A stretch of DNA of 64,000 nt from Neckera pumila. Lineage: Eukaryota > Streptophyta > Bryopsida > Hypnales > Neckeraceae. Both the position numbers and the translations under genes were made by a program. Location of the stretch: NCBI GenBank assembly GCA_963969595.1, contig OZ018418.1, positions 315,001-379,000 on the forward strand, given 5' to 3'. Positions 5,349-51,550 of this stretch are shown one piece after another (position 1 is the stretch's first letter; the number at the start of each line of letters is the position of its first letter). The notes beneath the pieces were generated by a model. That model did not search any database. It was not told where the DNA came from and was given only the letters and a program-made list of their open reading frames with translations.

Positions 5349-5399
5349 AAGAATCTAGGAAAAAAATTCAAAACAAAATCATTTAGTTTTCACTCATTA

Positions 5400-21559: not shown

Positions 21560-21960
21560 ATTTCATCATGGACTACAAACTCTACCACGTATTTAGTGGA
21601 ACACAATCTCAAATGTCATGAAAATAAATGGCAATTGAAAGAGGGGAAGAAATGTACAAATTGTAAATTTGGCCTACATGGAGAATCCATGTGGAATTAA
21701 AATTCTTGACCCTTTCAGCATATTATTTATGCAATCAATAAAAAACTTAAAACAAACTTTGCCCTGTACTTAGTGGAACTCAATCGCAAATGTCATGAAA
21801 ATAAATGGCGAGTGGAAGAGGGAAAAAAATGTACATGTTGTAAATTTGGCCTACATGGAGAATCCACGTGGGATTAAAATTCTTGACCCTTTCGGCATAT
21901 TATTTACGCAATAAAAAGAAAACTTAAATCAAACTTTGCCCTGTACATACTTCGTTTATC
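21560..21960 (+). repeat. Satellite subfamily with internal dyad, about 178-bp period (plus)
   Basis: Parts of three monomers share TTTGCCCTGTACTTAGTGG, AAATGTCATGAAAATAAATG and AATGTACATGTTGTAAATTT. The order and spacing of the GCCCTGTA, TGTCATGAAA and TACAAGTTGTAAAT words match the 176-bp satellite at 1-5,348, so the two are related subfamilies. Each monomer also has a short dyad near 21,673 and 21,851 (TACATGGAGAATCCATGTGG) that the first satellite lacks. Confidence 0.75.
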
Positions 21961-23060: not shown

Positions 23061-23084
23061 ATAGTGACTTCTTTTGTAATTTCC

Positions 23085-24000: not shown

Positions 24001-24720
24001 AAAATATTAAAAAACAATATATGAGTCCCAAAAAATTGGGATTAAATATGATTGGGTCTATGTTTTAACCAACACGCCAAACCCTAAATCTATGGACATT
24101 GTATACAAAGAACTTACCCAAAAATTATAGAAGTTGCAAATATTGCCATCAGTAGGAATCTATTGGTGGTTGTTTTTCATTGACTCTTATATGATTAAAA
24201 AAATATGGGAATAAAAGTGGTCCTCAGTTCAAACCAACACACATATTTAAAGTCATGGAATTCATACGTAAATTGCTTATTAAGAAATTGTAGAAGTTCT
24301 AAATATTGTCAAGATTACAAATCCAAGAGAAAATTCAATTGGTGGTCAATTCAAATTCTATTGACCCCTACGTGTTTCCAAAAAAATGAGTGTAAATGTG
24401 GGCCTGTGTTTTAACCAAAATGCATATTCTAAATCATGGAATTTGTACGTAGAAGGCTTATCAAAAAAGTGTATAAGTTGCAAATACAGTCAAGAATTGG
24501 AATCCACAAGAAAATTCAATTGGTAGTCCTCAATTATCAATCTATATGTGATTAAAAAAAGATGGGGAAAAATTGTTGGCCGGTACTATAATCACCACGC
24601 ATATCCAAAGTAGTGACTTTGGATGTGAAACGCTTCATAGATATTTGTAGAAGTTGTAAATATTGTCAAAATTTTGAATCTATGAGAAAATTCATTTGGT
24701 GGTCGTTTTTAATCAACCAC
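24001..24720 (+). repeat. Satellite subfamily 3, period about 165-180 bp
   Basis: About four diverged monomers with AAATCATGGAATT, TGTAGAAGTTGTAAATATTG and GAGAAAATTCAATTGGTGG. It follows subfamily 2 without a break and keeps a similar period. Confidence 0.65.
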
Positions 24721-25894: not shown

Positions 25895-26560
25895 GGCTCA
25901 ATTCAATTCATAACACTTCGGACTCGCTCCACAAATTACAAATAATAAATAATATGCCAAAAGGGGCAAGAACTTTAGTCCCACATAGATTCTCCATGTG
26001 CGTGGGTCAAATTTACAACTTGTACATTTTTTTCCCTCTTCCAATCGCCATTTATTTTTGTGACATTTGAGATTGAGTTCCACTAAGTACAGGGCAGAGT
26101 TTGATTTCAGTGTTCTTTTAATTACATAAATATTATGCCAAAAAGATCAAGAACTTTAATCCCACATGGATTCTCCATGTCGGCCAAATTTACAACTTGT
26201 ACATTTTTTTCCCTCTTCCAGTCGCCATTTATTTTCATGACATTTGAGATTGAGTTCGACTAAGTACAGGGCAAAGTTTGTTTTAAGTTTTTTTTTTATT
26301 CCGTAAATAACATGCCAAAAGGGTCAAGAATTTTAATCCCACATGGATTCTCCATGTGGGCCAAATTTACAACTTGTACATTTTTTTCCCTATTCCAATC
26401 GCCATTTATTTTCATGACATTTGAGATTGAATTCCACTAAGTATAGGGCAGAGTTTGTTTTAAGCTTTTTTTGGGATTGTGTAAATAACATGCGAAAAGG
26501 GTCAAGAACTTTAATCCCACATGGATTCTCCATGTGGGATAAATTTACAACTTGTACATA
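25895..26560 (-). repeat. Satellite subfamily with internal dyad, about 178-bp period (minus)
   Basis: Nearly four monomers in the opposite orientation to the copies at 21,560. TGACATTTGAGATTGAGTTC recurs near 26,060, 26,238 and 26,416. Each monomer carries the dyad CCACATGGATTCTCCATGTG near 25,982, 26,161, 26,338 and 26,517; the last two have perfect 10-bp arms around a 3-bp centre. Confidence 0.8.
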
Positions 26561-26859
26561 TTTTTTGAAGAAATTTATATTGTACAATATAAAGTAACTA
26601 AAGAAAATCTTTTTGTCATAATTTTACAAAATAACCTTTGCAAAGATGAAAACATTGCAATAAAAAAAGATTAATCAAGTGAACAATGTAAGTAGAATCT
26701 TCACATTTGAATATGTAGAGCAACGCTAGCGGTCGGTGCTTCTTTATTTTTGAATATCACATTTAAAAAAGCTATGGAATTTATCTATACTATTTGCATA
26801 GATATTTGGAACACTATTTGCAATTTTATAAGAAGTTACTTTATGCGGGAACATTAATT

Positions 26860-29393: not shown

Positions 29394-30929
29394 TATAGGG
29401 AATAATCCTGAACCCCTACACAAGATAAATGATCACTCTAATGATATTGAACTAACAAAATGCTTTGACATTCAGGAACAACACAATGAGTACGTCAAAC
29501 CCGACTGACTACAACTACTCTGCGACTGAGCTGTTCCTGGAGCCGTTCAAGAACCCACTGGGCGATACTCCATTCATACACCCAAATCTTGCCTTGAATT
29601 ATGGAAAATTGTGGCAGTTTAATGCCTCCGTCAAATCCTGGAATTACAGTGTCAATCGGCACAAGAATTATGTCTTCCTCTGCCGAAGAATGCAGGGGAC
29701 GCCGATGTTCTTAAACAAGAATATTAACAAGAAGGTGACTCTCGTCGACATCCATCATGATGAGTATATTGCCATTGTCCTCCAAGAAGTCGACGACAAA
29801 GGCAATCAGCTTCCACACGAACACTCCATCGTGACAAGAGTAGGAGGTCAAAGTGGACAGTTCAATATGGAGATGTTCCTCGAGTTCATCGCCAATACGC
29901 ACTTAGGATTAGTCGCTCAAGAATTCACAGAGAAATTCTGGCCCTGGAATCTGGCAAATGCCAACGTGAACGCACGGAAGATTGCCTCAATCTTCACCAC
30001 ACTCAATTGGTACGCCGCCCTGCAGGTGCAAAAGATAGTGAGTGCTCCCTCAAGGAGAGAGCAAAGACGAGGCGACACTGACGCCGAACCCCTGTCTCAG
30101 TTGGGAGCAATGCCTCATGTCAGCAGGGCAAGCAGGCAAGAGCAGACATCGTCATCAAATAAGAAGAAGAAGAGAATCGATACTGAAGCTGGTGAAGAAG
30201 GCTCTAGAAGAGGGAGAAAAGTCACAGCGGCCCGTTTTGGAAGAGCTGGAAGCTCGAGCTCCGCCCTCACAAATGTCACTGCAGAAGAGGAGGTAATTCG
30301 AGATGTTCTGGACTATGATAAATTCGCGGAGGAGCAGCGGATATTCTGGGAAACCCACAAATCATGCTACTTGTTTGAGTCAAGAACATTTGAAGTGTCT
30401 GTCAACAAGTGCATCCGTGCTAAGGATCATTATGTGATTTGGAACATAGAAAAGGGGGTCTTCAGAACTATGAGGAACATGCTGCTTCGATTATCAGTCA
30501 TATCCTAGAGGCAGAAGCTTTGTCTGACCCCTGTTGACAAAGACGGCAATCTCCTACCGGCCCCTCCTACGAAGTGGGAGGACATTAAGAATGGGGATTT
30601 CATGATTATAAACGGCCAACACAGCATCGCTGTCTCCAAGGAGTTCCATTCTGGTGGTTGCGGAGCTTAAAGGAAGAAGGATCTACAGAAGTGGGAGGCA
30701 AACATTGTCTGGTCCCTTGACCCGACCAAGTTGACCAGAATCTCCGAATTCCTAAACAGCACCAATCACCGAATATGCCCAGCCGACATGGGGTAATCAA
30801 ATGATAAGTTGTCGGAACACCTGGATGAACCTCAAGCGGCCATCAAATGCCGCTAATGAGGGAACAAAACGAGGGAACAAGTCTATCACCAACATCGTGC
30901 AGTATGAGGTAAAGTTTCTCTGACCGTAC

Positions 30930-31094
30930 GATCCTCGACTTGAGGATAGACATCTAAATGCGATGGGTGACATATTCTCTTCCGTACAGTCATCATTGAT
31001 GAACAAGTCAAATTAATGCTCTCCTGCTGCTTTTTTTGTACCAGTTACCGGGCATGCAGAATGTGCATATGATTATCCTCGATTCGAGGACATA
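30930..31094. repeat. Palindrome family P1, two copies in intron 1 of gene B
   Basis: ATCCTCGACTTGAGGAT at about 30,931 and TTATCCTCGATTCGAGGA at 31,073, both inside the intron 30,909-31,141. Confidence 0.85.
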
Positions 31095-32485
31095 ATCACT
31101 CATTAACCTGAATGATATTATCAGAGATTTATGTGTTGCAGCAATTTGATGGCTTGATTGTCAAACGATTCCAAAACATCAATCTAGACGAGGACGGGGC
31201 TAATGTGAAGAGGTCGGCGGACATCAAAAACAAGATCCGGATGATCACATTGCCCGACGAGATCTACGCGCTCTGGAAAGATTTTATGAAAAAGCACGCC
31301 GAGGGAAAATTGATTGACCCAATGACCTGTAAGCAATACAAGGATTCTAAAAGATTCAACCCCAAGTCTAGTTCCTTAAAGCGAGAATTTTTCAAACACA
31401 TGGGTCAGTTCACGGATGAAGACCTGAAGGTGTTTGCTACGCACTTGCTTGGAAAGACACCGGGTTGTACTTTGTCCTATCCAAAGGTTTCAGTGAATAA
31501 AACAAAGTTCTTGGCAAACGACAATCAATTGGCAACTGACTGGGTTGAGCGCGGGAAACGCAAGAAGATAGTTCTCGATGAGCTGATGGAAATCAAACCA
31601 ATATTCAATTTTAAAGACAACAACAGGGACGTTAAGCAAGAGTTCTAGAAGGCTTGGAAGAAGAGGCATCGGTTCTCATCGGTGACTTGGGATTTTTTGC
31701 TCAGTGACATTTCGCAGCAGTTTCTGGCTAAGCGCCTGACCAATGAAGGGAAGATCAGAAGTGCCGAGTACTTCTCGGACAAATACCTGGAGATTGTGCC
31801 CATGTTGGAGAGATTTATGGAGTTAAAGTATCATCTGCGTCCAATATCAGGAAGCATCCAAATACAGGCCCACAACATGGTGTTGCTGGCACTCACAAAG
31901 AGTACTGCCGTGAAGTACATGAGAAGGACGCTAAACTTTGCAATCATGGACCTTTGAGACGCCCCCAGAGGAAAGCACAATCCAACAAAACCCCTGCCTC
32001 TTGTCCCATTCATGAAGACCATGGAGCCTGCAAAGACTGACCCTAATGTCTGGATGTGGATTGTTGGGGACAATTGGGACACCAAGGCAGCTACAGACTT
32101 CATCTCCTCTGAATTGAAGGAGTTCAAATGCATGGTATCGTCCTATGTTTTAGTGAAGGCAAAGAGGCTCAACGATATTACTTCTAGGGGAACGAACTCC
32201 GAAGTGCCTCTACTTTTTTTCTTCAAGACAGGAAATGCTCACGCAAGCCTGATGTAGACCAGAATGAGGCCGAAGTACACGGTTCCGGAAAGTCTCGAAT
32301 ACTACCAACCCAAAACGACTAAGAATAATGAGCATAAGTGGAGAGTCTCAACAAGCAAACTGCCTATGGGGTTCTACAACCAGATACTTCAAACTTTTGT
32401 GTCGTCAAGAGAAAACATTGTGGGTATCTATGCAGGAACAAAGTGCATGCTCGCCGCTAAGGTCAGTCATCATCACATCTAGTAG

Positions 32486-32609
32486 TTATCCTCGACTCGA
32501 GGATAGCACCTACTCTGGGGTGGACCATTTCCTTTGCATCCTTGCAATTCCTTTCAAATATCAACCAGTCTCAGTTGTCGTGTTCATTCTATCCTCATCT
32601 CAAGGATGA
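32486..32609. repeat. Palindrome family P1, two copies in intron 2 of gene B
   Basis: TATCCTCGACTCGAGGATA near 32,487 is perfect; ATCCTCATCTCAAGGAT near 32,591 is degenerate. Both lie in the intron 32,462-32,672. Confidence 0.85.
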
Positions 32610-33370
32610 AGTCATACTGCCCGCTAGATTCTTGACAGGCATACTTATTTACTTCATTGTTGTTTGAGGCAGTTGTATGGACTACACTACTGGGCGATCG
32701 CCAACAGTGTGCACAGTCCAAAACATTGGGAGTTGGCGGAGCTGGTCGACAAGCTGGACCTAAGCGACTTCTTGCACGACAATTCCCCATACAAAGCCTA
32801 GTATATTAGACCAACAAATGTACAGGCCACCTCCAAAGAAAGCCGTCAAGACGGATATCTGGAGGTCAGTCCGATCATGGGACACCTAACATTGACGAGT
32901 TTGGGACAAATCGCAGTCAACCTGGAGAATGCTCTCATGGAAACGATGATGAAGAGGAAGACGCTCTCGATATTCCTGTCAATGATGCTTAGCCTATTGA
33001 AGGCTTTGAACGGGGAATTCAAGCTCACAGCTTGGATCCCACCAGTCAACATGAGGGCACTGAGTTGAAAGACCATATCTCTAGACAATTGAAGATTCCC
33101 GAGATCGTGGATGTTTGCGGTGAAAACTCGGATGCAGGTACCAACCCCAAAGTTCAAGAGATCTCAAGCGCTAATGTTCGTCTACCCGTCAAGGATTCTT
33201 GTAGTTCTAGTGGCACGGAGAGGGCAAGAAAGAGGTAAGCAACGGTGGGAAAAGTCACGTCACGGAAGAAGTTAAAGAAGGCCCAGACTGAATCTCATAG
33301 TACGGACACGGAGATGGAAGAGCTAAAGGCGAAGGTTGCAGAATACCAACGCCTGCTTCTCTTGAAAAGG

Positions 33371-33621
33371 GATCCTTGAGTTGAGGATATGGCGGTACAG
33401 GGTGGTCGAGTCGCTGAAGGTTCTGTTTGGAAGGGGACTGTACCTCCGACAGCTGAACTTGCTCCACCTCCCTCCAGACCAGAGACCAAAACTCTGGTTA
33501 ATCCGTCCTCCCTTTCGACTGATGAGGTTGTTGGCACTCCCGTTGTGGGGAGTGCGTGCAAGTCACCGGAGATGCTAGGTACTCAGGAGGATTAGGATTA
33601 TCCTCGGCACAAGGATAATCC
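33371..33621. repeat. Palindromes inside the coding tail of gene B
   Basis: Two P1-type dyads lie within otherwise open coding sequence: ATCCTTGAGTTGAGGAT near 33,372, which includes an in-frame TGA, and a longer dyad at 33,596-33,621 with arms GGATTATCCT and AGGATAATCC. Between them at 33,534-33,555 is GCACTCC, a spacer, then GGAGTGC, the dyad type (P3) otherwise seen only in the intron of gene D at 42.5 kb. Confidence 0.7.
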
Positions 33622-34049
33622 TGTGAAGGACAGCAATGTGGTCCTGGAGGTGGTTGGGGAGCCTGTCCTTAAGTACAATAATCTAGAGGCTGAAGAAGAG
33701 GAGGTGGATTATGAGGAAGAGGCTGGCATAGACACAATGGAGGTAACAGAGAGATAATGCGATGTCTCGGGGGAGAAGCAAGATGTCTCTTTGACAAAGG
33801 AGGCAACTGAGGTAATCTCTTGTGACCTCCATGACCCTTATGAATACTAGTGAGTCAACAAATGCTGCTTGATGGATGCGTTTTGTGACTTCCATCGAAC
33901 TATCTTTACAGATTAAGTGACTCTTAATTCTATTCATTCTGGTTTGACAGGGAGGACCGGATTCTTTGTGATTTTGTGGCGTAGATGCGTCTCTCATGAA
34001 TTTCCGTGATCTCTAGCGTAGAGTAGATTTACAACTGCACGTAGTTTTA

Positions 34050-34059: not shown

Positions 34060-34335
34060 ACCGCCGGCTATAGATTAACAAAGTATACTATGGGTGTATA
34101 ATATTTTGACAGTTATATAAAATACATGTTACAGAAAATGCCATGTCTCTCCCCTAATTTCATTCTTTTCTCATTGTTTTTGTGACTAGCCTGAAATCTT
34201 CAATATTGTGCACCGTCCGTTGCCAATGAAACCATCAATTTCTTGAGGTGTTCCGCATTCGATTAGCGAGCTTCAGTGCTTAATCCTGCTTTGTAGCTCA
34301 CCTGGTTCTCCATTCATTTAGGTAATTCCTTTTCT

Positions 34336-34788
34336 ATGGTGTTTTCTTATTGTCAAGTAGTAGCGGAGAGCGGCAGAGATATTCTGCTTAGGGGTGTGTC
34401 CACCATAGAAGCCCCAGCGCGGCGTAAATGGTTGAACCTTGTTCTGGACTTAAACGAAATACTGAGTCAGTGCGTGCCTAAGTCCCAGTATAAAGACCTA
34501 ATTACTTACAAAGTGTCAGACAATACTTTCTCTGCCCAAACACCTACTATTGTTGGTTCAAAAGCTGTCTTTGCCCATCCAAAGTTAAAGGATTTTCTGC
34601 AAGAGATTTTCCTTATCGCTGATCAAGTTGTAGTCTGGAGTTCCATATTTAAGAAGAATGCGGAGGATGTCGCAGGGTATTTGTTTCAGGGATCAAAAGA
34701 AACCTTTGATATACTTGGGCAGGAGCATTATGGGAGGGTTGAGATCTCCAAGGGGAATTTTCTGCCCCATCCGGACAATTACAGGAAG
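34336..34788 (+). pseudogene. FCP1/NIF-like HAD-fold gene, N-terminal half
   Basis: The frame encodes RKWLNLVLDLNEILSQCVP, which lines up with the HAD motif I of FCP1/SCP-type CTD phosphatases (LVLDLDETLVH). The second Asp is Asn and the Thr is Ile, so phosphatase activity is doubtful. It continues with HPKLKDFLQEIFLIADQVVV, like the RPgLdeFLeel...vvvfTa region of the family. The frame is cut exactly after codon AAG at 34,788, where a Mutator-like element is inserted; the rest resumes at 47,983. The 5' part before about 34,336 is unclear. The CACTA-type right end at 34,059 lies 280 bp upstream and may have removed or separated earlier exons. Confidence 0.7.
34780..34788. repeat. Target-site duplication, left copy
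   Basis: TACAGGAAG; the right copy at 47,974-47,982 is CACAGGAAG. Nine bases is the usual length for Mutator-like elements, and the single difference is a C/T change. Confidence 0.8.
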
Positions 34789-34852
34789 GGGATCGCTATT
34801 TTGCGTGCGTAGAGATGCAAGCGGAGAGCGTAGAGCATAGATTTGCGAGCGG
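34789..34852 (+). repeat. Left terminal inverted repeat of the Mutator-like element
   Basis: Starts GGGATCGCTATTTTGCGTGC. Aligned without gaps to the inverted right end, the 12-bp core is identical and 26 of the next 46 bases match by eye. GCGGAGAG-like words are repeated just inside. Confidence 0.75.
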
Positions 34853-34859
34853 AGAGTGC

Positions 34860-35650
34860 TAGAAGTTTGTTATTTTTTGGAATGCGAGCAAGAAAGTAAA
34901 AGTTGTAGAACATTTTAAGTGAGAATACTCTTGAAATTTATAATAATGACGGACCTATGACCGTGGAGTAGGTTGCAGAAATATGGTGGAGAGGAGTTTT
35001 ATTTTGTCAGTGCACGTACTGTCTAGAAGACAGAAGTCGCAATTATCGGTCACAGGGTCCTATAATCATGGTGATAAGGGTGTGAGAAGATATAATATTT
35101 GTGGTTGTGGATCGAAGCAAAAAGAAGAGCGGAAGGGAAGCCGAGTGGGAGTGAGGAGGTATTGTTTAGGGGATTGCAAGAGTTAGGGAGGGTACGTGAT
35201 AGAGAATGGGCGCGGAGGAGTGAAAAAGAGCGGTTATATTGGTGGTAGAGGAACAGATAGTGGTTATATTAGTTTAGCTTATGTTTAGAGTTTAGAAGGT
35301 GTACGCAAACAATCTAGGGTGCGGAGAGATGGTGGATTTAGAGTGTACGGTGATTACGAAACACTTGGAAGACAGCAACAGTCGGCCCCGACAGCGGAAA
35401 TGGGTTTAGGGATTCAGAAAACCAAGAAGGCTTGGATATGAGACAGACATTTAGGGTTTATGGTACAAACTCATGTCATGCACTGAGAAGATGAGTGCAA
35501 AATACTCCAAGAACTTCTATAGAATTTGATTTTGGAGCAAGCACACAACAACAACAGCTTTGTGCACAAACTCTGGCGGTGGCCCTTCAAGTCTCACTGC
35601 CGTCTTTTTAAAGTAGAAGAAAGGATCATACTGCGATATTCTCGGACTAT
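34860..35650. other. Subterminal non-coding part of the Mutator-like element
   Basis: AG-rich on the plus strand with no gene recognised. It lies between the left terminal repeat and the 3' end of the transposase. Confidence 0.5.
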
Positions 35651-35659
35651 TCATGCTCA

Positions 35660-38600
35660 CTATGCACCATAGTGTTTTAGTAGCAGAATCTGTAGAACCT
35701 GTTTTATCTCATTCCAGCTGAAACTGGGAGCATGCGTAAAGATATTTACCTCCAGATCTAAACCACAAACAATGACGAATATGTAGTACAGGTGCTCACA
35801 GTAAGTCCATGCTCCTTGCTTGCCAAGTGACTTGTGTGACATGTCTTTAAATGATTGGCAGTTGCAGCTTGGGAATTGACCAATTGTCAGCAAATACCTA
35901 GATACCTTAGAAATATTGCTAGACTCTAAATTAACAATGCAGCCACGAGCTGGAGGAGGAACCATTAGAATACTGCAGATCTCCCCAACAATGGACAGAG
36001 TAGAAGCGTAGTTGTTGTGGTGCTTCGTTGTTGGAGCGGTAGGGTTTTTCCAAATGTTCTTCCCGTATCGCTTGGTGGGGTGATTTGAAGGATTTGGAGG
36101 AGGAGGATAGTCGCCCAGGTTTATAGAAATGCCTTCCCCAAACAACTTCCGAGGTGATAGATTGACACGCTCCATAAGGTTGAATCCGGTGTTTTCGAGA
36201 GTTAGAATCTCTTTCCTTGTCAAGTTCGTGCCCATCTTAATAGGCCAAGCCTCAGGGACGGCAGGTTTAGAAAGTACCCATTTCCGTCAAGTTCCATTGA
36301 CACAGCAATTGATGTCATCATTACAAAAGAAGAACTGCATGTTCTTTAATCTGACCTTCTTGTAATTGTCCATCAATCCGGTGTAAGTTGAGGCAACTGT
36401 ACTTCTATTGTCTTGCACAATCCTTGCTACACATTTCTTTTTGGTCTTGGCCTGCAAAGCAAAGCAAGCTTTTGCAGACGTCCTCAAGAGTCTTGCAATA
36501 TGCCACTGCCGCTCATCGCAAACAGTCTCCTGAACTGATTTGACATGCTTTGGTGGAGAGTGAGTCAATGGTGACTGGAGTGGGGGAGTAGTGCCTTCTC
36601 CTTGGCTAAGTTCAAATTTTGATTGTGGGTCCTTGGCAATGAGATTTACAATCACTGGATTGAACCGTTGGGCCTTGTGCCTCGAGCGGGAGACACTGAT
36701 CTTGTAAGGGCGGTGTGAGTTGAATTTTGATATCGGAGAGAGATCTGCCTTTTGCTTCAAGGAAATGAAAACTTCTTCCCCTTCCAGATGCGGATCATGT
36801 GTGCAGAAGACGTCAGCACCAAGCATATTGGTGAGGGCGGCATGAAGAACCTTCAAATTTCCGGAGCATTGAGCGGTGCGTTGGGCTATACAAAGACTGA
36901 GTTCTTCTTTCCTCGGACCAGTACCTGGCTTTCCACCCTTCAAGAATTGGTAGTAGGCAACAATTGGCATGAATGCTCTGACCATGTCATTGACGGAAGC
37001 AACGTACAAATCATTTCTTCTTTTGCCCGATTGTTGCAACCATTTGTTGTGGACCGACTCCGCCAAATTACATGACGGCATCTCGGCCAATTCGGTTGGT
37101 GAAAGGTCCTGTACGCAATCCTACAAGATGAGTGTTGAAACGAGGAACAAGACTACAAAACATTAGGTGACTAGGGAAGAAGAGATGCAAGAACTACCAC
37201 TACCAAGGAGTAGTGCCAATAGCGGCATGGCAGTGGCAGGGTACGCAAAATCAAGCGAAAAAACAACTGAAGTTTGCACTTACCAGTTCCATGAATCCTC
37301 CCCATTGGCAGTACCAAAAATGCCAGAATGCGAGCCATAATTTGAGTCTTGGAAGTCCATCAGTTGAAGCTCCAAATGATAACCACCATGCACAGATGGC
37401 CAAATACCTACTCTGAGCCTCCTCCAATAATTCAGAGTTCTTGTATTGTTTACAGAGTCGTTGATGCTGATCTTACAAGTCTGCTCTGATATCTGCCTTG
37501 GTGTGTTTCTCCAGTGATTGGGTCCAGTGGAAAAGGCAAGTCCTTTCACGGTTGAGTATGGAGATTGCTGGGTCACCAGAACCGTATATAATACATATAG
37601 CATTCCAGTTTGCCTGAGCACTGTCTGCCATGAATCCTTTGAAATTTGGATTAGTAATACCAAGCCTAGAAGACACAGCATTTAGATTCTTCCAGAACAC
37701 TTGTTGAGCTGCCACATCTTCAGATTGCATATTGCAAGCAGCAATTGTCATAATGCGGCAGTATGTGGAGTCATAGACGTGACAAGCCATTGTGATCCAG
37801 GATTTTACCTTTTTGACATGGTCAAACATCATCCACGCGTTTTCCAAGTCACCTCCGGGTTGCATACGCCTGACCAAGTCGACCCCACTTCCGGAGCCCA
37901 GTTCCGCCATTTTGAAAATGAAGACCCTGTCAGAGTCCACTCCTTGTCCCGGAAACCTGTTCTCCTGGATGAAGGCCTAGTTGCTGGACCCTCTCAGTTT
38001 GGTGATGCTATTTAGGACTCCAAAACGACGGAGGTAATGAAAAGTGGTGACCTCGTTTCGAATACTTGGAGATGACATTTGCTTGAATTTGTCTAGGACC
38101 GGGAGTAGTTCCTCAATCCCTAGAGTCTTCTCAGGCACACCTTCTGGACATAGAAGTAATTTGCCAAGGTACTCCTTAGTCGCCTCCAAGACAATGGCAG
38201 AGTTTGTCGCTGATGGAGCCCTTTCTACATGTTCGCCAATAAGACTCCAGAGTTTGGAGCTGATTCTTGATAATTTCCTTGTTTCACAAGATGTGCATGG
38301 AATCCAAGATGGATACAGGCACGGGTCATGTGACTTGGGCCGTAAACATAATATATCTTTGCAGGGCAACTATCTACGCAAGTAGGCTTCACAAGGCAGA
38401 GGGCACAGAGGACAGTAGAATTACAGGGGGGATCAGATCCGGGAATGAAGGTAGAGGAGGTAAGACCTTCCCACTCAATTTCATTTGATGGAGACAAGCG
38501 GTTGGGCCGACTTCTATATTTTGCAATCAATATTCGTGCAACGTAGATGTCCCAAGCAATTGGACAATTTGAATGAAAGTTGAGATGCTGATTGGATATG

Positions 38601-39391
38601 CGTAGTAGCCGTTCGAGTCCAAGCGTGTCCGTCATCCTTTTTATCCATGCCATGGAGCTGCCCGGCCTTTGTGGATAGCGGATACTTCTCCATTTGAGGG
38701 AGCTCAAAGATAATATCACCATTTAAATCTGGTGGCAAACACTCTACCTTCTCTATTGTAATTGAATTGTAATCTAACTTGCTAAGAATTGACCTAGCGC
38801 CCTTGTTGGAATTCAACTGGCGTAGGCAGCAGACGATACTCTCAGCAGGTGGAAAGGGAGGCTTAGAAGTGGATGGACCTGAACAACGAGAGGGAACAGA
38901 CTCAAGAATGGAATGTGCGTGCACAACCGCGGGTCCTGCAAGGTGGGGAGCAGTAAATTCAGGTGTGGAAAGGATGCAGTCACTATTAGAATCATCACTG
39001 AGAACAAGGACAAGACCATCGACATGCTCTAATTTGACGTTCCGAAGCATTGGGGTGACCTTTGATGTTGTAGAAGAACTTCTAGGTGTACAATCAACCG
39101 TATTATCTTTCATTCCATACACGCAATACTTCCGGGTGATAAAGACCAGACCTCACTGCCAAGAGAGTCACTTGACATTTGCGCTACAGTGTGAGAGACC
39201 TGCCTTGAAACTGGATTAATGATGTCTAAATCCAAATGCAAAGTACCTTCCATAATCTGACCCCGCGAAGCCAGACAAGGACCAGTAACTCTAGCAAAGC
39301 CATCCTCCCCCACGACAAAAGAAATAGGCAGTGTTGGTCCATCTCCTCGAATGACAACTACATTGGAGATGGCATCCTCCAAGGTAGACAT
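35660..39391 (-). pseudogene. Mutator-like (MULE) transposase with SWIM zinc finger, gene E
   Basis: Minus-strand pieces at 39,391-39,110, 39,122-38,514, 38,722-38,225, 38,369-37,977, 37,940-37,473, about 37,460-37,280, 37,090-36,287 and 36,235-35,660 make one protein interrupted by frameshifts, stops and probably short introns. The N-terminal zinc-binding part has LSNCLGHLRCTNIDCK, then CALCLVKPTCVDSCPAKIYY and ACIHLGFHAH. The core has ACHVYDSTYCRIMTIAACN, NFKGFMADSAQANW and TCLFHWTQSLEKHT, matching the MULE pattern of Asp, Asp and C-x-x-H. CNLAESVHNKWLQQSG supplies a Glu candidate. Near 35,880-35,790 GQFPSCNCQSF followed by WTYCEHLYYIF fits a SWIM finger (CxC...CxH). It lies inside inverted ends with a 9-bp duplication, consistent with a MULE, and is transcribed away from gene D. 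Confidence 0.8.
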
Positions 39392-40266
39392 GACAACTCT
39401 AACTCGTGAAGAGGCAATACAACAAACATGAAAGCTATGTGCAAAATGAGGACCAAGTAAAATCTAATTACAGTATTCCTTAAACAAGTAAGGTAGAGTA
39501 CGAGGTATATGTCATTAAAGTGTACTCATTTCATAACTACAGACATGCCGCCATTCAGTAGTTCATTAAGGCAACATAGTACTGAGACAAACTTTGTGGT
39601 ACATGTTCATTTTAATTAATATCCGTTCCCAATTACAGTGAACACTGTCGGAGCCGCAGCCGGTTTTAAAAGGTAAGATTTTCGGATGCTGTATGACTTA
39701 CAATGAATGAAATAAACTGGATATTAAAAGTATGTGTGATCATAAGAGCAGTCTTTTAGTTTATTTTTCATTAGGGGACTACTCTACGAATCGCTACAAC
39801 TACTCTAGAGGTAATAAGGAGCCCAAAGGTTTGTAACTAGTTTTTCTTGAATTTGTTGAACTGTCTAAGGAGAACTGCCAATTGAAGTGTCGGTATACTC
39901 AAATCCACAAATTGGAGGAGGGACGAATTTTGCAGAACGCAAACTCCATTCATGATATGGAGCGCCAGGGTTGAACAAGTTATGACGGTGCCACGGGGTC
40001 GAAGGGACCGACCCGTCATTAGTCATCATCGGCCCATTAGAGTGGAATGACGCCATTAGTGTTTTTCACTTGAGCTTTAAACCTGTAATCATCCATGCTT
40101 GTTGGCATGTCTGAAAGATTTAGCACCTTATTGGGCTGCGTAATATAGTCTTTATGGCACAAGCACTTGGAATAATACGTAAATAGCTGTGATCATACAT
40201 TAATAGGACAAGGGTAATTAGTATTGCGGGGAGTGGAAATGACAATGAATTCTTGCACCCTTTAGA
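39392..40266. promoter_or_regulatory. Divergent intergenic region between genes E and D
   Basis: About 875 bp without coding content separate the start of the transposase (minus) from the ATG of gene D (plus). A shared bidirectional promoter is the simplest reading of the arrangement. No specific promoter element is assigned. Confidence 0.4.
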
Positions 40267-40659
40267 ATGCCGAAGAGACGAAAACTACGACCTTTGTATT
40301 TTACAAATCCAAAGCGCTTGAGGAGGTCTAGGATCATGAGGGAGTTGCAATCAAATGCTAGGATAGCTGATGCTGGAGAAACTGTTAGAGTCCTAGAATT
40401 TGCTACCAAAGAACCATCTGTTAGTGAAGTGCAGGTTCCTCCTCCATGTAGCCTCACAGAAATTGTAGAGGACACAATGAAGTGAGGACTTTCAAAGAAA
40501 GCCTCTCCAGGTAGTAGCGAGAGTGGAAGTACACCTGATGAGAGTGCTGGTGATCACCCAGAAGGATCGAATAGAGAGACCACTTCAGAGCAAGGTAATG
40601 TGACAATTAAATTCATGGTTTGCCTCCTAACATCATTGTTGGTGTTCTTGAAGGTATTG

Positions 40660-42270
40660 TCACCAGTACCTTTTGCTCTGTCCGGCTTTGCGCTCCGTGA
40701 TGGCTTGAGCTCTGTCTGGTTGCTTGCACTTTGTCTGGTGGTTCCGTGGTGGCTGGCGCTCTGTGAGGCCTTGCACTTCGTCTTGCTTGGATTTTGCTTC
40801 ATTTGGCTTGCGCTCCTTCAGGCTTGCACTCTGTCTGGTGTCTTCGCTCCATTGGCTCCATTGGCTCCGTTGGCTTGCATGCTGGTTTAGCTCCGCTAGC
40901 TCCGTGCTGTTTTAAATCCGTCTGGTGGCCCCTTGCTGGTGGCTCCGTGCTGGTTCCGCTCCGTCTGGATTCCGTTCAATCAGGTCTGCATCTTCAGATT
41001 GATAAGGTCTTTTGCCCCGTAGGCTTGCCTGCCGGTTTCGCTCTGTTGGCTCGGTTGGCTTGCATGCTGGTTTTGCTCCATTGGCTTGCGTTTTGGATTC
41101 ATTCTGTCTGCTTGCTTATTGGATTTTCTCCCTTGGCCTGTGAGTTGGTTTTGGTTGGTTGGCTTGGTGCTAGTTTCGCTCCGTCTGGTGGCTACTTGCT
41201 GGTGGCTTCGTGCTTAGGTCTTGCGCTCCGTTGGCTTGCAAACTGGCTTTGCTCCGTTGACTTTGTGCTGGTTTCGCTCCGTCAGGTAGCTCTTTGCGTT
41301 TTGCTAAGTTTCTAGCTACGCTCTATCGCTGGTCTCGCTCCGTTTAGGGTTTTGCTCCGTCTGGTAGCAGTTTGCATTTTGCCCTGTTGCTAATTCCACT
41401 ACGTCGCTAATCTCGCTCCATTTAGTGTTTCGCTCCGTCTGGTAGTTGTTTGCATTTTGCTCCGTCGCTGATCTCGCTCCGTTTAGGATTTTGCACCGTC
41501 TGGTAGTTCTTTGCGTTCTGCTCCGTTGCTGGTTCCGCTCCGTCGCTAGTGTCGCTCCATTTAGGGATTTTGCACTGTCTGGTAGTTCTTTGCGTTCTGC
41601 TCCGTTACTGGTTCCAATCCGTCGCTCCATTTAGGAATTTGCTCTGTTTCCAAGTTTTGCTCCATGCTAGTTTGCTTCGTACTGGTTTTGCTCCGTTGCA
41701 TGTTTCAAGACCTTTAAATTTTGTGGTGGTCTTGCTCCGTGGTGGTCTTGCTCCGTGCTGGTTTTGTTCCGTCCGGACCCCTTTAAACTTATTCACAAGG
41801 TCTCGCTCCGTTGCAAGTTTTGCTTGGTTGCAGGTTTCACCCCGTTGCAGGTTTCACCCCGTTGCAGGTTTTGCTTGGTTGCAGGTTTCACCCCGTTGCA
41901 AGTTTTGCTTGGTTGCACGTTTTGCTCAGTTGCAACTATAGAGACGTGCTGCTTTCGAGACGTTTAGGATTTTGGTTTAGGGACGTTTAGGATTTTGAGA
42001 CGTTTAGGGTCTCGATTTCAAGACATTCTGGTTCCGATTTAGGGTTTCAGTTGTCTTGGCCCCGTGTTGGGTTCGCGTCTTGCTAGATTTGCTCCGTGAT
42101 AATTTTGCTCCATCCGGACCCCATTAATCTGATTCCCAAGGTCTCCCTCCCTTGCAGGTTCCGCTGTGTTGCAGCTTCCTTCCATAATGGTTTCGTGCTA
42201 TCCTCATTTTGAGCCGTGTTGGTTTCGCTTCGTTCGGACCCCTTTAAACGGATTAATAAGGTCTTGTATG
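40660..42270. repeat. GCTCCGT minisatellite in the first intron of gene D
   Basis: About 1.6 kb of words such as TTTGCTCCGT, CGCTCCGTCTGGT and CTCCGTTGGCTTGC. From 41,300 to 41,660 a higher-order unit of about 80 bp (CTGGTAGTTCTTTGCGTTC, then GCTCCGTTGCTGGTTCCGC, then CATTTAGG) is repeated. At 41,800-41,940 shorter units with GTTGCAGGTTTCACCCC appear. Long open frames on both strands come from the repeat and are not genes. Confidence 0.85.
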
Positions 42271-42466
42271 GTTGCAAGTTCTGTCAAGATGCTTGAAACC
42301 TCTGAAACTACGGAGTGCGCAAAGAAAACGGGCGTGGACACTAAAGAGGCGAATCAACCACCAACCACGAAGAAAGATCCATCAAATGGATTGAGGCAAC
42401 AAGGGCAATGAAGAGGAGACGACGAACACACTTGGAGGTAAGTTTTTGATCATCTTGGGAATTCTA

Positions 42467-42642
42467 GCACTCCCTTAGGGGGAGTGCCGCATTAGCACTC
42501 CCTCTAAGGAAGTGCGGTCAATCATTGAGCACTCCCTTACAGGGAGTGCCGCCATCGGCACTCCTTCTAAGGGAGTGCTGATCCTTAGGACAACACTTCC
42601 TTAAAGGGAGTGCCACCATCGGCACTCCCTCTAAAGGAGTGT
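42467..42642. repeat. Palindrome family P3: six hairpins in an intron of gene D
   Basis: Six 21-bp dyads of the form GCACTCCCTNTAAGGGAGTGC lie at 42,467, 42,495, 42,529, 42,558, 42,593 and 42,622. Arms are 7-9 bp. Start-to-start spacing alternates near 28-29 and 34-35 bp. They are in the intron between 42,437 and 42,694. A single similar dyad is in gene B at 33,534. Confidence 0.9.
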
Positions 42643-45400
42643 TGGTTTTATGGCTTCCTCGTGGCAGATTGTTAATATTTTGTATTTGTGTAGGTGAGAC
42701 GGATAATATGACAGATATTGACAGAAGGGATGGACTGCAGTCTTCATCACAGCCAGACATTCTCGAGTTGGGTGCGTATCCTTGACGGCCAGGGATTCTC
42801 AATTCCGGTTACTTGAGGTTAGGATGTTTGTTCTTCTTTTGCTAGCTAAGTTTTTTATGCAGAGGAAGTGGGTAACAAGGATGTCGAGACCTCCCAGGAC
42901 ACACCTGAGACAGAAAAAGCAATGACGGAGATGACGGCTGAGGAGCTTGGTAAGGAAATGGACAAGATGGTTGTGCAAGAGTCAATCAATACAAACATTG
43001 TATTGGACAAGCTCTGTTTCAAGCCAAGGGAGAAGTCAAAACTGAGCATCCCGCTCTGTCGCATGAAAGCTTTGGTTGCTGTATTTGTCCATACCTAAAG
43101 AACAACGTCATGGCACTAGGCGCATATTTCGCAAGTATCGGATATATGGATGGGCATGGTGTCTTCTACGTCGCCTTGCAGGACAACGAGGGCAAAACAC
43201 GGGACATGACCGACAAGGATGTGGCCTCCTAGAGTCCGTTATGGGTTGCTGCAAATGACAACTTTGATAGGGAGCTATAAAAGGAAGACTTGTGGAAGCA
43301 ATTCTCGGGGAAAATGTTTTTTGTTTGGGACAGCAACCATCGGCTCGCGGCCCGGCTGCCAATAATTAACAGAGACCACCGGAATGACCCGTCATGCCAT
43401 TATGCGGTTGAATCAATTGTCTTGGAGGTTGAGGACCAAATCAGGCCACTTCTCACTACATTGCACCAAGTGAACTGGTAATCCACAAATTGGAGACCTT
43501 CCCTCATACTGTTTGACTGCGAAGTATGTCTGTTATTCAGTTCTAACATTGATTTGCTCAAATAGGAGAAACCTGACCTGTCACGTGAAGTTAAACCTTG
43601 TTCACAAGTTGTACAGGCTTCAAAATATAGCTGGTCAACCCCAATCCAATTACAACAATCTAGTTACCAAGGAAGAGCTAGCTGACGCTGAGAAGAAACA
43701 GAAATCAAAGACTCGAACTTGGTACACCTTGACGCTAGACGGGCTAATTGGGGTTCTCTATCAGGTACGGTACAGTTATATACATAAATTATTTAATATG
43801 GATTTGCTTTTTGTGATGTCTGTTGTCTGCTTCCGGATTGAAGAAATGGAGTGCCGATATTGTCACTTAATGTGTATATTCTAAGATTCAACTTCAAAGA
43901 TGAAGAATTTTCTACATCTCAGATGAAGAATTTGATCTTCTTCTGAGCAGTTACTATAATGTGAGTATCCTGTAAGTTCATTATACGAAAAAACCTCATT
44001 TCATGTTCATTGTCTTGCAACAAGAGCTAGGTGACGCAATAGCTCATGTGACCAAGAGATTCAAGGAGAAATATCCGGAGAAATCGAGTGAATGGACTAC
44101 TGGGAAGCTTTATGATGCCATTGGGAAGGCTGTGGATAAAGTGAAGAAGGATATGTCATCTGATGTGAAGAAACAACTTCCCATTGCTGATCCGAGGCAA
44201 ACACCGCAATTCCTAGAGCAAGTTCGGATTTACTATGAGAACCAAGAAGACGATCCAAAGATGTTGCAGGAGAAGTTGTGGTATCTTTCAACCTCAGTCA
44301 TGGACGTGGCAGTGAAAGTCAAATGGTTGGAGCGGTGGAACAAACTTGCCTTGCTTTGGGAAGCAATGAGGTTTCCGAGAAACAAGTTTTCTGATCATGC
44401 TTTTCCTGAGTGGCTTCACAAGGTGACCTGGTGGGCACAGGTAACTTGATTTATCTTTTCTTCTTTTTCTTGAATTCGATCCTGGCCCCGTCAAAGTTGT
44501 TACTAATTCCCTATTATAGTTGGCTAGTTTTGTGCAGGAACTGTTCGATGTGGCTCTCTTTGAGCTGGATGTCACGATCAATTATCAACCTTCTGGTGAA
44601 AGTCCAATTCCTAGCATCGTTGATTATGTGGAGCAAAATCGCGTCCATCTTTGGAATACTGCATTTTCCCATGAGTTTGATGGCAAAGGAGTTCACAAGA
44701 ATCATCCTCCATAGTTTCAGATTGGTCTGGATCAGGCTATGACTAGGGTTCTCTATTGATATTTCAAGTTTGTGCTGTATGCACGGAATGCCATGTCGAA
44801 GACGTTGTTGTTTTTCCCAAGCTACTTGAATAGACGTGCCCAGAATTGCATGATATCGGATGAGATTGCCAGGAAGTGGAAGAAGGAGCACTAGAAAGTT
44901 TGTGGGTGGTACATTGACTGCCCTCTGAACAATCCTCCTCCCTTTGAAATTGATTTAAGGAACAAGGTGCAACCCGATTTAACTGGGTTAAAGATGATTC
45001 ATGATACACCCCCAATGGAGGCACTTGCAAAAAAGACAAGGGGCTCAAAGAGAAAGGCCGAGGAAGAAGCAAAGAAGAAGGCCGCCTCGGATGTTGCGGC
45101 CACACAAGAAAGTGATGTATTCGCTGATGGGAGTGCAAGAAAGGATGCTGGACCGTCTGCAAATCCAGTGCCGGATGTGGATACGGACATGGAAGTGTTG
45201 GAGGTGGTTCACCCCCCACCTCCGCAGCCTACTCCTGGTGGTGCTCACAATCCTCATCTGCCTGCTCTTCATGCACTATTGAGCCCGCTGTCATTTGCTA
45301 TGCAGAAGCTAAAGACCACAGTCACCTCTCAAAAAGTAGATTCGTCATCAAGATCTTTCCTTGAATCCTTAGTTTGTGTTCAAAATTCTAGCCTCTTCTA

Positions 45401-45438
45401 GATTATGGAGGCTCTTCCAGATTATGGAGGCTCTTCCA
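45401..45438 (+). repeat. 19-bp tandem duplication breaking gene D
   Basis: GATTATGGAGGCTCTTCCA occurs twice in a row (45,401-45,419 and 45,420-45,438). Removing one copy gives an open frame that reads IMEALPDVHTCLETVNKFVL up to the splice donor at 45,483. The duplication is therefore a secondary frameshift mutation. Confidence 0.8.
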
Positions 45439-46722
45439 GACGTGCACACTTGCCTCGAGACTGTCAACAAGTTTGTTCTTAAGGTTTGTCTTTTCAATCT
45501 TAAGTTACCCTTATGTATTCCTTGAAATTAGTCTGCTTAGTTATGGTTTCTTGTTGTTATGATGCCTTGCCATTCCACGGTTCAAAATCACTGCCAATGT
45601 CGGCACTTGGGTATTCTCCGTCAGTGTCCATGTCACGTTGTTGGGACAGTTGTTCAATTTCTAAGGCAAATCGGTTTCTCAATGCATTTGTGTCATGCCA
45701 TATTCAACTAATTGATTCCATCTTTTTTAATGTCCAGGTCAAGAAAGAAGACAGTGCTAAGGCTTTGAATAAGTCTTGTCCTCATAGTGGCTTTGATTTG
45801 GTTCTTGGCGATTTTAATGATGGCCTTTGGATTCCATCCATTTCAGTGAATCCCGGTGATGTCCCTCCCTAGAATGAGTACTCAGAGCAACACACTGAAA
45901 GTGTTTTTGAGTTTGCGAAACATTTTCTTCACGGTGCGGGTGCAATTCTGTTGTTTGTCCTAGATGTTCCAAAGATCCAGACTGATGTGCTGTCCTATGC
46001 AAACGGCTACAACTTCATTTTGCATCGAGAGTGGTGAGGAATTAATAACCTGCCCTCTGCATCGTATTACAACTCAACAAATAAGGTAACTATTGTTTCA
46101 AATCTGGTATTGGAGTCACTGGATTGGAATTCACTTTCTGTTCTAATTCAATTTCATCGCAATCTTCATTTGCAGAGCAGAGGATTCCGGATTCAGCTCT
46201 TCATTCACCAGGCCATGAATGCTAGCAAATTCAAGATAGCGGCGGATAAATCACTTGTGGAGTTCGGAATGGGAGTTGCTGAATTTGATGTGTTATTCAA
46301 TTTCACTTCCGCGGCCTCTCAATCCATGAATGGATCTGTTCCATGGAGAGGCACCCATGAGAAGGATCTAGTTTTCCTTCAAATGCTAATTGAGGCTTTT
46401 ACCAAGCCGAGGTCCATCATCCTTGATGCATTTGCTTCTCTTGGTGAGTACTGTTTTCTCTCGTGACGAATTTCTCTCGTTAAGCGGGTCATGTATAATA
46501 CTAAATTTCTTCATTGGAATTCAGGTAATTCTATTTGAGCTTGCAAGGTTATTGGACGACACATTGCGGCCCTTGAAGACAACGTTATGATCTTCCGGGC
46601 TAAGTTGCAGCAGTTCCACCAAGTCAAAGCTATAGCTCAATGTCAACTTCCCACTTTCGACAATCGACTAGTGATTGCACTAGACGTCCCTATTCGGCAG
46701 ATCACTAAGAGGAACAGATTTA

Positions 46723-47565
46723 GTAAGTACGTCTCCTGCTTGATTCTAATATCTTTCAGTCTTCTGTTCATAATCAATTCACTAACACAAACTCGTTTGG
46801 CTTAGAGTAATCACTCTACTCCAATCTCCAGCCAAAGACTATTTTATGGCACCGTGGGACGCAAACCTCATTCAGTTGTAGGTGGCAGAATCTTCTCCGA
46901 CCTACACACGCAGTGGTAGAAGTTTTTGTAAACGCATTTGTCGTTTTATTGATAACAAGGCAGACATTGATATGGAACCAAGACCAGCATCTTCTGGCAG
47001 TTCCTCAACTTTTTCATTTTAATAATTTCAATATCACCCGGATTTATTGTTTGAGTTCTTTTCACCCACATACATCTTGTGCTTCCATTTGTAATGTTGT
47101 GCGTCTGTATATGTCAATGTAATGGTTCATCTTAGCATCCATTCAAGGTGCAATTGAATTTCCTTATTCACCTCAAATATATCAATTCATCAAAGTCTTT
47201 CTGGCATGGGCTACGCTCTCTGATACTGAGGAATTATTTAACATACACTACATTAAAAATCAAACCCTCCAAAATTTAAGGAAGTTCCTCATGTGAAGTC
47301 TCCATGATTTTAATCTTCACTTTGTTCATAAATTTGTTGCTGTCTGTTTGCTCTATCATCGATTAATGCATTCACAATATAAGTTTTATTTATGCATGTT
47401 ATCGGAGGACATTTCTTTTCTGTTTAGGACAACCCTAAATCCACAATAGTTTGCAATTTTGTCTTCAATTGTTTGAGACACACTCATGGTTGCAGTTTTT
47501 TAACGAATATGAAATGGTTCTATTTGGATTAATGGTGTGATAGTATTTTAAAGATCTCTTCTCGT
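46723..47565. other. 3' non-coding part of the Mutator-like element
   Basis: AT-rich with no recognised gene. Confidence 0.45.
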
Positions 47566-47701
47566 GGCCTCAGGGTAACAACGGCCATAGGGTAACAACG
47601 ACCATTGGGTATTAATGGCCATAGAATAACAACGGCCATAGGGTATCCACGGCCCTAGGATAACAACAACCATAGGGTATCCACGGCCATAGGGTACCTA
47701 C
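47566..47701 (+). repeat. 17-bp tandem array, eight units
   Basis: Eight contiguous 17-bp units, consensus GGCCATAGGGTAACAAC. The unit is not a multiple of three. It lies about 270 bp inside the right end of the Mutator-like element. Confidence 0.9.
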
Positions 47702-47906
47702 TCTATTTATTCAATGAATCATTTTTGTTTACCATTTACCTGCCGTGTGCTGCCTATTACCATGGTCAATCATTTCTCACATTCAACCAATCTCACGGCT
47801 ATAGGGCCCTACTGTTGTAGATTGGTTTCTATTTTTAACTTTTGTTTTGCTTAGATTTTATCATCTACTTTTACTTTTATAGAATATGCCCACTTTGGGG
47901 ATCCCG

Positions 47907-47973
47907 GGGCCCGCAAAAGTATGCTCACTGCTCTGTGTTCTATGCTCACAGTACGCAAAATAGCATCGTCCAT
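47907..47973 (-). repeat. Right terminal inverted repeat of the Mutator-like element
   Basis: Reading inward it gives ATGGACGATGCTATTTTGCG, with the core identical to the left end. Confidence 0.75.
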
Positions 47974-47982
47974 CACAGGAAG
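47974..47982. repeat. Target-site duplication, right copy
   Basis: CACAGGAAG, matching the left copy at 34,780-34,788 in eight of nine bases. Confidence 0.8.
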
Positions 47983-49134
47983 CCCTTTTTCCTCAAAGTT
48001 CTTGAGGACCAACTGTTTTCACGTTAATAACACGCTGCTTATTGACGACTCCTCCGAGAAGAGTATGTGTAATGAAACGAATAGTGCGATTTTTTGGAGA
48101 TCATGGACTCACAGTCAACCAAATGATGACTTTCTTATGGGGTCTCTCGCACCATGGCTTTGTTGATTGCACAAGGATTGTAATCTGGGAAAATTACTAA
48201 ATTACGTGAACAACAATAGAATAGGATATGACCCTCTTCCTTCGAATTTGCAGACGCATTCCTATATTCTACAGGGCATGTGGGAGTCTGCAAAGAAGAT
48301 GGAGACGCGATTTCAGCTTCGGGGGATAGATTACGTCATTGACTACGGGAATTGTAGTCCATATTGTAGCATGCATTGAGCACTTGGGGCATTGGATAGG
48401 CAGTTAGTTTCTGTAGATATGCTTTGCTCCTTTCTTTGATCCTAAGATTCTATGTTTCCTTGCGCCAGATTTTTCATCACTGTAAATGTCTTGGATCTGT
48501 ATTATATAATTTTGAGGCGCCAAATTGATACTTTGTGCTTCTCTTGTTCCTACGCGGCTTCTTCTGTAGTTCTGGATGCTCAAGTGGAGGATAACTTGAT
48601 TGTTGCACTTGGATTTGATTCCTGTTTCAGGTTGGAGGATCTTGTCTGGACTTGCATCTGATGAGGAGTCTACGTTCTGGCTTAGAGGTTTCACTCTCGA
48701 GGTTGTCAAGTCCGGCTGGGGGGAGCTGATTGCCGTCTCCTTTTTTGAGACCTTACATGATGTGCTCTGCTACAGATGCGGCATCAGCGGCTATAGATTA
48801 TTCCAAAGGCAATGTGGAGGAAGGTGTAGTCGACAGCCCTCCTAGTCGATGTCTTGTGAAGACACCTATTTGCTCACCGTCCCCGTTGAAGCGGATGACA
48901 TCACCACCTGGACGTCAGCATTTATATTTGTCATCTACCCGGACGAAGGCCAAACCGCATAGGAAGCTGTATGCGGACCTAAACCGAGTGGATTCTACAC
49001 TTGCAAATGAAAGTAGAATGACCGGACCGGATTCGTTTACGGATGCCAAACTACCTCGTCCCGAGGATAATGGATTTGTCCGCTCGTTGTCTCTTAGAAG
49101 CGGGTCTCAAGACACAGGTGTCACCTTTTATTGA
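47983..49134 (+). pseudogene. FCP1/NIF-like HAD-fold gene, C-terminal half
   Basis: The reading frame from 34,788 continues here as PFFLKVLEDQLF, then after a one-base shift as NNTLLIDDSSEKSMCNE, PNDDFLMGSLAPWL and YVNNNRIGYDPLPS. This matches the end of the FCP1/SCP catalytic domain, where the Lys, the DD(N)SP motif and the W...L..LI.FL region occur in this order. One in-frame TGA lies near 48,160. Downstream, acceptor-bounded sequence near 48,632-49,134 encodes a Ser/Pro/Lys-rich tail ending RSLSLRSGSQDTGVTFY and is probably the last exon(s). Together with the N-terminal half this is one gene interrupted by the Mutator-like element. Confidence 0.65.
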
Positions 49135-50039: not shown

Positions 50040-51550
50040 TTGTTTACAGAAAATTCAGGAGACCAACCCTTTCAAGATTTCTGCGTTTCTTAGAACACCG
50101 TGAAGTGATCTTGCATTAAATGTGGCATGTGAGTTAATAGTGAATTAGGATTGAGTGCACTTATAAAGGAATCCAATGCCAACCTAAACCCTATGAATTT
50201 TATACCCTAAACATTTACAAGGAAAAAAAAATGGGAAGGGGATTTGTACTTTCTTCTAAACATTTATATGAAAAAAAAATGGGAAGGGACTTTGTACTTT
50301 CTCCTCCACGAAAGCACAACACTTGAATTTGAAATGTCCTTCCTAAATTAAACCATGATGTCCTTCTCAAATTAAACCATGCTATCTTTCATGTTAGTGT
50401 GAAGTAACAAAATTTAAATCTTGATGGCTTGATTTTAGTTTGAAGTAGCAAAATTTAAATCTTGATGGCTTGATTTTAGTTTGAAGTAGCAAAATTGAAG
50501 TAATGGTGGCTTGGTTTTAGTTTGAAGTAGTCTAATTTTAATTATGGTAGCTTGATTTTAGTTTGAAGTAGCAAAATTTAAATCATGGTGGCTTGGTTTT
50601 AGTTTGAAGTAGTCTAATCTAAATCATGGTGAATTGATTTTAGTTTGAATTAGTCTAATTTGATTCATGGTGGCTTCCTTTTAGTTTGAAGTAGCAAACT
50701 TTAAATCATGGTGGCTTGGTTTTAGTTTGAAGTAGTCTAATCTAAATCATGGTGAATTGATTTTAGTTTGAATTAGTCTAATTTGATTCATGGTGGCTTC
50801 CTTTTAGTTTGAAGTAGCAAACTTTAAATCATGGTGGATTGATTTAATTTTGAAGTAGTCTAATTTAAATTTTGGTGGCTTGGTTTTAGTTTGGAGTAGC
50901 AAAATTAAATCAAGGTGGCTTCCTTTTAGTTTGAAGTAACAAATTTTAAATCATGGTGGCTTGGTTTTAATTTGAAGTAGTCAAATTTTAATTATAGTAG
51001 CTTGGTTTTAGTTTGAAGTACGAAATTAAAGCATGATGGCTTGGTTTTAGTTTATACTAGTATAATTTGAATCATGGTGGCTTGGTTTTAGTTTGAAGTA
51101 GCAAAATTTATATCATAGTGGCTTGGTTTTAGTTTGAGTGGGTATAATTTAAATTATGGTGGCTTGATTCTAGTTTGAAGTAGCAAAATTTAAATCATAG
51201 TGGATTGGTTTTAGTTTGAAGTAGTCTAATTTAAATTGTGGTGGCTTAGTTTTAGTTTGAAGCAGGAAAATTTAAGTAATGGGGCGTGAATTTAGTTTGA
51301 AGTACCAAAAGTAAATTATAGTGGCTTCTTTTTAGTTTGAAGTAGCAAAATTTATTCATCGTGACTTGCTTGTGGTTTGAGGTAACAAAAAATAAATCAT
51401 GGTAGCTTGGTTTTAGTTTGAAGTAACAAAAATTAAATCATGGTGGCTTGGTTATAGTTTGAAGTAACAAAATTTAAATCATGGTGGCTTGGTTATAGTT
51501 TGAAGTAACAAAATTTAAATCATGGTGGCTTGGTTATAGTTTGAAGGCAA
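50040..51550. repeat. Composite repeat block, copy 3, with 41-bp array
   Basis: The head (TTTCTGCGTTTCTTAGA, GTGATCTTGCATTAAATGTG, GCACTTATAAAGGAATCC) matches block 1. The 41-bp array (50,340-51,545) has about 29 units and contains larger duplications: about 120 bp around 50,580-50,700 recurs at 50,700-50,820. The SINE-bearing tail is missing, so this copy is truncated. Confidence 0.8.

Follow-up and report, generated by a model that had tools for sequence, protein, structure and literature searches.

A decayed Mutator-like transposon in the moss Neckera pumila with a putative accessory gene of ParB-like and methyltransferase-like character

What kind of gene lies opposite the transposase of a large DNA transposon in the moss Neckera pumila, and does it belong to that transposon? 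The question is raised by 64,000 nucleotides of contig OZ018418.1 (GenBank assembly GCA_963969595.1, forward strand, positions 315,001 to 379,000; hereafter the window, in whose coordinates all positions are given), where an element of about 13.2 kb lies between inverted ends at 34789 and ~47973 and holds two divergent genes, a transposase on the minus strand and, on the plus strand, a second gene that we call gene D. An earlier note, made from the letters alone, had described a complete Mutator-like element (MULE) carrying phage-like cargo in an arrangement that, to its author's knowledge, had not been reported before. The evidence favours, short of certainty, a DNA transposon of the Mutator superfamily, preserved from end to end but decayed, in which the two divergent genes flank a control region rich in repeats.

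MULEs are recognized by long terminal inverted repeats and a target-site duplication of 8-11 bp, and both are found here, the duplication with one mismatch. The left terminal inverted repeat (34789..34860, plus strand) begins GGGATCGCTATTTTGCGT; the right one (47900..47971, minus strand) is placed by alignment of the two ends and by an exact core, GCTATTTTGCGT, which occurs at 34795-34806 (+) and 47953-47964 (-), while five further matches to it in the window each have two mismatches. Aligned with gaps, the two ends reach a score of 77, compared with a mean of 32 and a maximum of 52 for 300 letter shuffles, and the alignment extends over about 220 columns, the first 60 being densest, which bears out the inverted ends claimed earlier. 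The 9-bp duplication of the earlier note does flank the element (TACAGGAAG at 34780-34788 and CACAGGAAG at 47974-47982), but its copies are equal at 8 of 9 positions, and an 11-bp duplication (ATTACAGGAAG at 34778..34788 and ATCACAGGAAG at 47972..47982, equal at 10 of 11) fits equally well, both ends then starting with GG.

Removal of the element rejoins a NIF/FCP1-like domain: the Pfam NIF model gives 23.3 bits with the left flank alone (profile 2-78), 16.4 bits with the right flank alone (profile 106-148), and 37.5 bits with the flanks joined (profile 2-148). The reading frame, said to be exactly restored, does run on past the junction, for about 45 bases before the next stop; the joined reading passes over this frame break. 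The usual motif of the domain is DxDx(T/V), with a usually invariant Asp; here DLNE stands in its place, with Asn for that Asp. The interrupted gene (34297-34788 plus 47983-48169) is therefore itself broken, and it and the frames upstream of it (29456-33800) may have been carried as cargo by another element.

Transposases of MULEs are of the RNase-H/DDE type and related to IS256; they have C..H after the second catalytic Asp, a SWIM-type C.C..C.H finger, and frequently a WRKY-GCM1-type N-terminal zinc finger. The transposase pseudogene of the window (about 35660..39391, minus strand; start codon placed by eye) was outlined from relatives, tblastn coverage, lesions, the fold of relative P0003, and a C-terminal alignment, and consists of an N-terminal part, an RNase-H/DDE core with C..H, and a C-terminal SWIM-like finger (~35780-35870). 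Public contigs contain 124 relatives (P0001-P0120 among them); D355, D421, C450, and H453 are kept in at least 90% of 70 alignment rows, and the SWIM-like C.C...C.H is present in all five C-terminal relatives as well as in the window. The best solved structural match to the catalytic part, by the predicted fold of P0003, is ISCth4, a prokaryotic transposase with 9% identity which we take to be a member of the IS256 family and for which we know of no accessory gene. No Pfam MULE, SWIM, or other transposase model matched 30 N-terminal and 5 C-terminal relatives at an expectation value (E) of 1, such a match being an aid to MULE assignment and not its defining feature; the transposase profile found two unrelated chains among PDB sequences (E 0.27 and 0.78); and neither a transposase piece nor the alignment matched any viral contig. 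Catalytic residues, C..H, finger, relatives, and fold together confirm a MULE-type transposase with a SWIM finger, now a pseudogene, and the family is perhaps an uncatalogued branch of the MULEs.

Gene D (42694..46726, plus strand) is likewise a pseudogene and, as first noted, divergently transcribed. It was drawn by eye as ten segments, from the sequence without a transcript, and has about nine exons: eight segments are followed by GT and nine preceded by AG, the break at 43095/43098 reflects a change of frame rather than an intron, and GT is missing after the segment that ends at 45368. As a single 953-residue protein it found no relatives among 7459 candidates, probably because relatives stored as single-exon frames were excluded by the length rule; a 211-residue composite found 15 among 85 candidates, all known without genomic context. 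Twelve of these (P0121-P0131, at 55-68%, plus P0134) match the exon with the ParB/Srx-like motif (43098..43477), three match an exon with no assigned domain (44021..44440, drawn from 44025), and none covers the methyltransferase exons. Eight of the twelve stop exactly at ...VNW, where the window exon has a GTAA donor, as an intron shared with the relatives would give. The motif GK.F.VWDGNHR..AW is invariant in 11 aligned relatives of this exon and appears to resemble ParB/sulfiredoxin domains, DGNHR in particular suggesting a ParB-like identity. When the ParB-like part was compared by hhalign with ten phage ParB domains the motif was aligned, at P 0.094 (one unrelated control gave P 0.28). Matches to a ParB/sulfiredoxin profile were absent (0 of 11 relatives in Pfam, 0 of 4 in NCBIfam, and none of 3 to a ParB family in PHROGs); the predicted fold was of low confidence (predicted local distance difference test score 42.6), with 73 matches, none at E 0.001; prokaryote genome contigs gave no match to the ParB-like alignment, nor viral contigs to this alignment or a gene D exon; and a tblastn search of phages with P0123 returned one unannotated record at E 10. 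The ParB/Srx-like core first proposed is suggested by a conserved motif and unconfirmed by profile or fold.

The product of the C-terminal exons (45738..46726) matches N6/N4 methyltransferases over the same 45-60 residues in Pfam (E 9.5e-4), PHROGs (E 5.6e-3), NCBIfam (E 1.8e-5), and PDB sequences (DpnA 6.1e-3, CcrM 0.34, MboIIA 0.87), and also four phage ParB-methylases by hhalign (P 8.5e-4); the matches, each of them weak, agree on place and family. A tblastn search of phages with this region returned 14 records, the best at E 0.01; of these, 10 are named methylase or methyltransferase, 1 hypothetical/portal, and 3 are unannotated. Viral contigs had no match to a methyltransferase exon. A degenerate motif IV, GDFNDG, is followed by motif I, DAFASLG, and then by ACK..GRH.AALE; motif IV before motif I is the beta-class order of amino-methyltransferases. 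The beta-class N4/N6 motifs of the earlier note accordingly hold for this order and for the profile similarity around motif I but not for the catalytic [DNS]PP[YFW], and because that motif is absent in this copy we call the C-terminus methyltransferase-like only. Phage proteins that combine a ParB domain with an N6/N4 methyltransferase (L002, L006, L008, and L009) align significantly with gene D in the methyltransferase part only, and differ in being intronless and in having canonical motifs (SPPY in L002, DPPY in the other 3 of 4).

The earlier description of the element as complete holds for its ends but not for its coding capacity. Gene D as drawn contains 8 in-frame stops and one frame change, and the transposase has frame changes and stops opposite residues common to its relatives; at two of these stops the aligned stretches number 114 and 72. 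Among 397 codons of the transposase and ParB-like exons kept at 90% or more in relatives, 41 are changed: C>T/G>A accounts for 26 of them, the reverse for 5, and transversion for 6, and 4 are ambiguous or multiple. The C>T/G>A changes exceed their expected share among transitions, 0.488 (P 5.8e-5). With looser frames, which overlapped and counted one place twice, 46 of 428 codons are changed (28 C>T/G>A, 5 reverse, 7 transversions, and 6 other), and C>T/G>A changes outnumber the reverse by 9 to 1 in gene D and by 19 to 4 in the transposase. Such an excess is what deamination of methylated cytosines would leave, although a general bias towards AT could contribute.

Between the two genes lies a feature additional to those first observed, an array of 22 GCTCCGT heptamers (40692..42097, plus strand), partly in tandem units of 17, 61, and 78/79 bp. 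All 22 copies are on the plus strand, and neither strand of the 64-kb window has the heptamer anywhere else; the mean over 100 shuffles was 1.93 and the maximum 6. Just upstream of gene D, GCACTCCC/GGGAGTGC repeats occupy 42466..42641 in both orientations, and a 17-bp tandem array of 8 units lies near the right end (47565..47700, plus strand); the GCTCCGT stretch likewise has its strongest period at 17, but the sequences differ.

For such a gene in such a place there is a published counterpart. The 21.5-kb Ectocarpus transposon Sola1-1_Ec32 has, opposite its transposase, a gene for a protein of 1104 residues in which a ParB-like domain is combined with a methyltransferase domain, the latter predicted to make N4-methylcytosine or N6-methyladenine, and an accessory-protein class with ParB-like and N4/N6-methyltransferase domains has been proposed from algal DNA transposons (PMC12477816). 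Both “phage-like cargo” and “undescribed arrangement” must consequently be given up, since the domain combination is already on record for algal transposon accessory genes (PMC12477816); the first interpretation is partly supported. Gene D and the algal genes share the predicted domain pair and a size of about 1000 residues, and both lie opposite the transposase within a giant DNA element (PMC12477816), gene D too being divergent from a transposase inside one element; they differ in that the Ectocarpus element is a Sola1 of 21.5 kb and the present one a decayed MULE of 13.2 kb. This precedent makes both the ParB and the methyltransferase readings likelier than their own tests alone would, and strengthens the view, which we prefer to every alternative considered, that gene D is an accessory gene of a now decayed MULE, of the ParB-like/amino-methyltransferase kind known from algae. 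On that view i) the transposase would have mobilized the element by a cut-and-paste mechanism; ii) the gene D protein would have bound the element's own DNA, the GCTCCGT array being a candidate site; iii) the intact protein probably marked element DNA, thereby influencing silencing or recognition, as proposed for the algal proteins (PMC12477816); and iv) cytosine methylation may later have silenced the present copy, which deamination would then have eroded.

Several points weigh against this view. The link between gene D and the transposase is drawn from a single locus, and the likeness to the algal proteins is one of domain content and layout, without sequence comparison. The ParB part is unconfirmed by profile or fold; the methyltransferase matches are short, weak, below curated cut-offs, and not independent, having one query in common, and the same PDB comparison also gave two unrelated chains (E 0.27 and 0.38). 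The catalytic motif is replaced by GDFNDG in this copy, and no relative spans it. Finally, GCTCCGT was chosen after k-mer counting, and tandem duplication by itself yields a single orientation; other tandem arrays are also present in the window.

The main alternative, which we consider rather unlikely, is that gene D is VANC-like, a DNA-binding anti-silencing factor built on a catalytically dead methyltransferase fold and carrying out no methylation. The motifs GDFNDG and DAFASLG are in its favour, as is the arrangement of GCTCCGT, since the target motifs of VANC21 point the same way and are densely packed in tandemly repeated non-coding DNA, some of it upstream of the transposase gene (PMC5735166, PMC10398659); but the catalytic motif was perhaps lost in this decayed copy only, and the authors of the algal study predict that those proteins methylate (PMC12477816). 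VANDAL21/Hi of Arabidopsis is indeed a MULE with an accessory gene, VANC, and short one-way tandemly repeated motifs in non-coding DNA (PMC5735166). VANDAL ends are degenerate (PMC10398659), however, where those of the present element are clear; the target motif differs, and VANC is likened to gene D by arrangement and not by sequence.

Less probable still, and weakened by the algal precedent, is capture of the Pack-MULE type, in which gene D would be a host gene taken up by chance with no role in the element. Fragments of host genes are indeed found in MULEs, usually without function (PMC13317346), and gene D relatives come without genomic context; against this stand its nine or so exons with introns, the divergent layout on a common control region, the algal precedent with the same layout (PMC12477816), and the similar decay of both genes. 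That gene D belongs to a second element nested in the MULE is very improbable: other elements and tandem arrays are present in the window, but none of 8 inverted pairs in 39400-47600 brackets gene D, a weak argument in that inverted-repeat scans missed the MULE's own ends too. We give practically no credence to a chance match of the ends without any single 13-kb element, for although the duplication has a mismatch and the ends diverge beyond ~60 bp, the alignment score, the exact shared core, and the NIF domain rejoined across the flanks all contradict it.

Returning to gene D as an accessory gene, other systems show parts of the combination. Retrotransposons that carry DNMT- or Dam-like enzymes are eukaryotic transposons with DNA methyltransferases, but of the C5 or Dam type (PMC5890265); the N4CMT of bdelloid rotifers is a bacterial-type amino-methyltransferase acting on transposons in a eukaryote, but is a host gene with SPPY and a chromodomain (PMC8885841); Pack-MULEs and KIU elements are MULEs with non-transposase genes, but their cargo is host fragments or Ulp1 proteases (PMC13317346); and a bacterial ParB-methylase has nicking activity in its ParB domain (PMC5512222). 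No MULE with a ParB/methyltransferase-type accessory gene was found among the entries examined in searches of the open-access literature.

The surroundings hold other repeats and elements. A DUF7869 frame (PF25273, E 2.8e-41) at 14659-15492 and a second frame with a similar HKDID motif, judged by eye, at 62516-62908, both on the minus strand, represent another transposon family; a DUF659 fragment (PF04937, E 5.8e-20) lies at 55533-56003 (+), and DUF659 is typical of hAT elements. Long tandem arrays occupy 2-5350, 21575-21946, 23068-24024, and 25945-26566, and also 9647-12238 and 50394-51546, with periods of ~175-177 (350-353) bp and 41 bp, the 41-bp kind lying on both sides of the element. Scans of the window for tRNA genes and Rfam families gave no match.

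A MULE with a ParB/methyltransferase gene would extend the algal accessory class to another transposon superfamily. It is conceivable, if doubtful, that the ParB reader and amino-methyltransferase form a portable self-marking module taken up separately by unrelated superfamilies, Sola1 in algae and a MULE here, and that in the present element it would target the GCTCCGT array, labelling or un-silencing its own DNA as a second, differently built counterpart of VANC. The dense array offers a ready test, in heptamers that the gene D protein may read.
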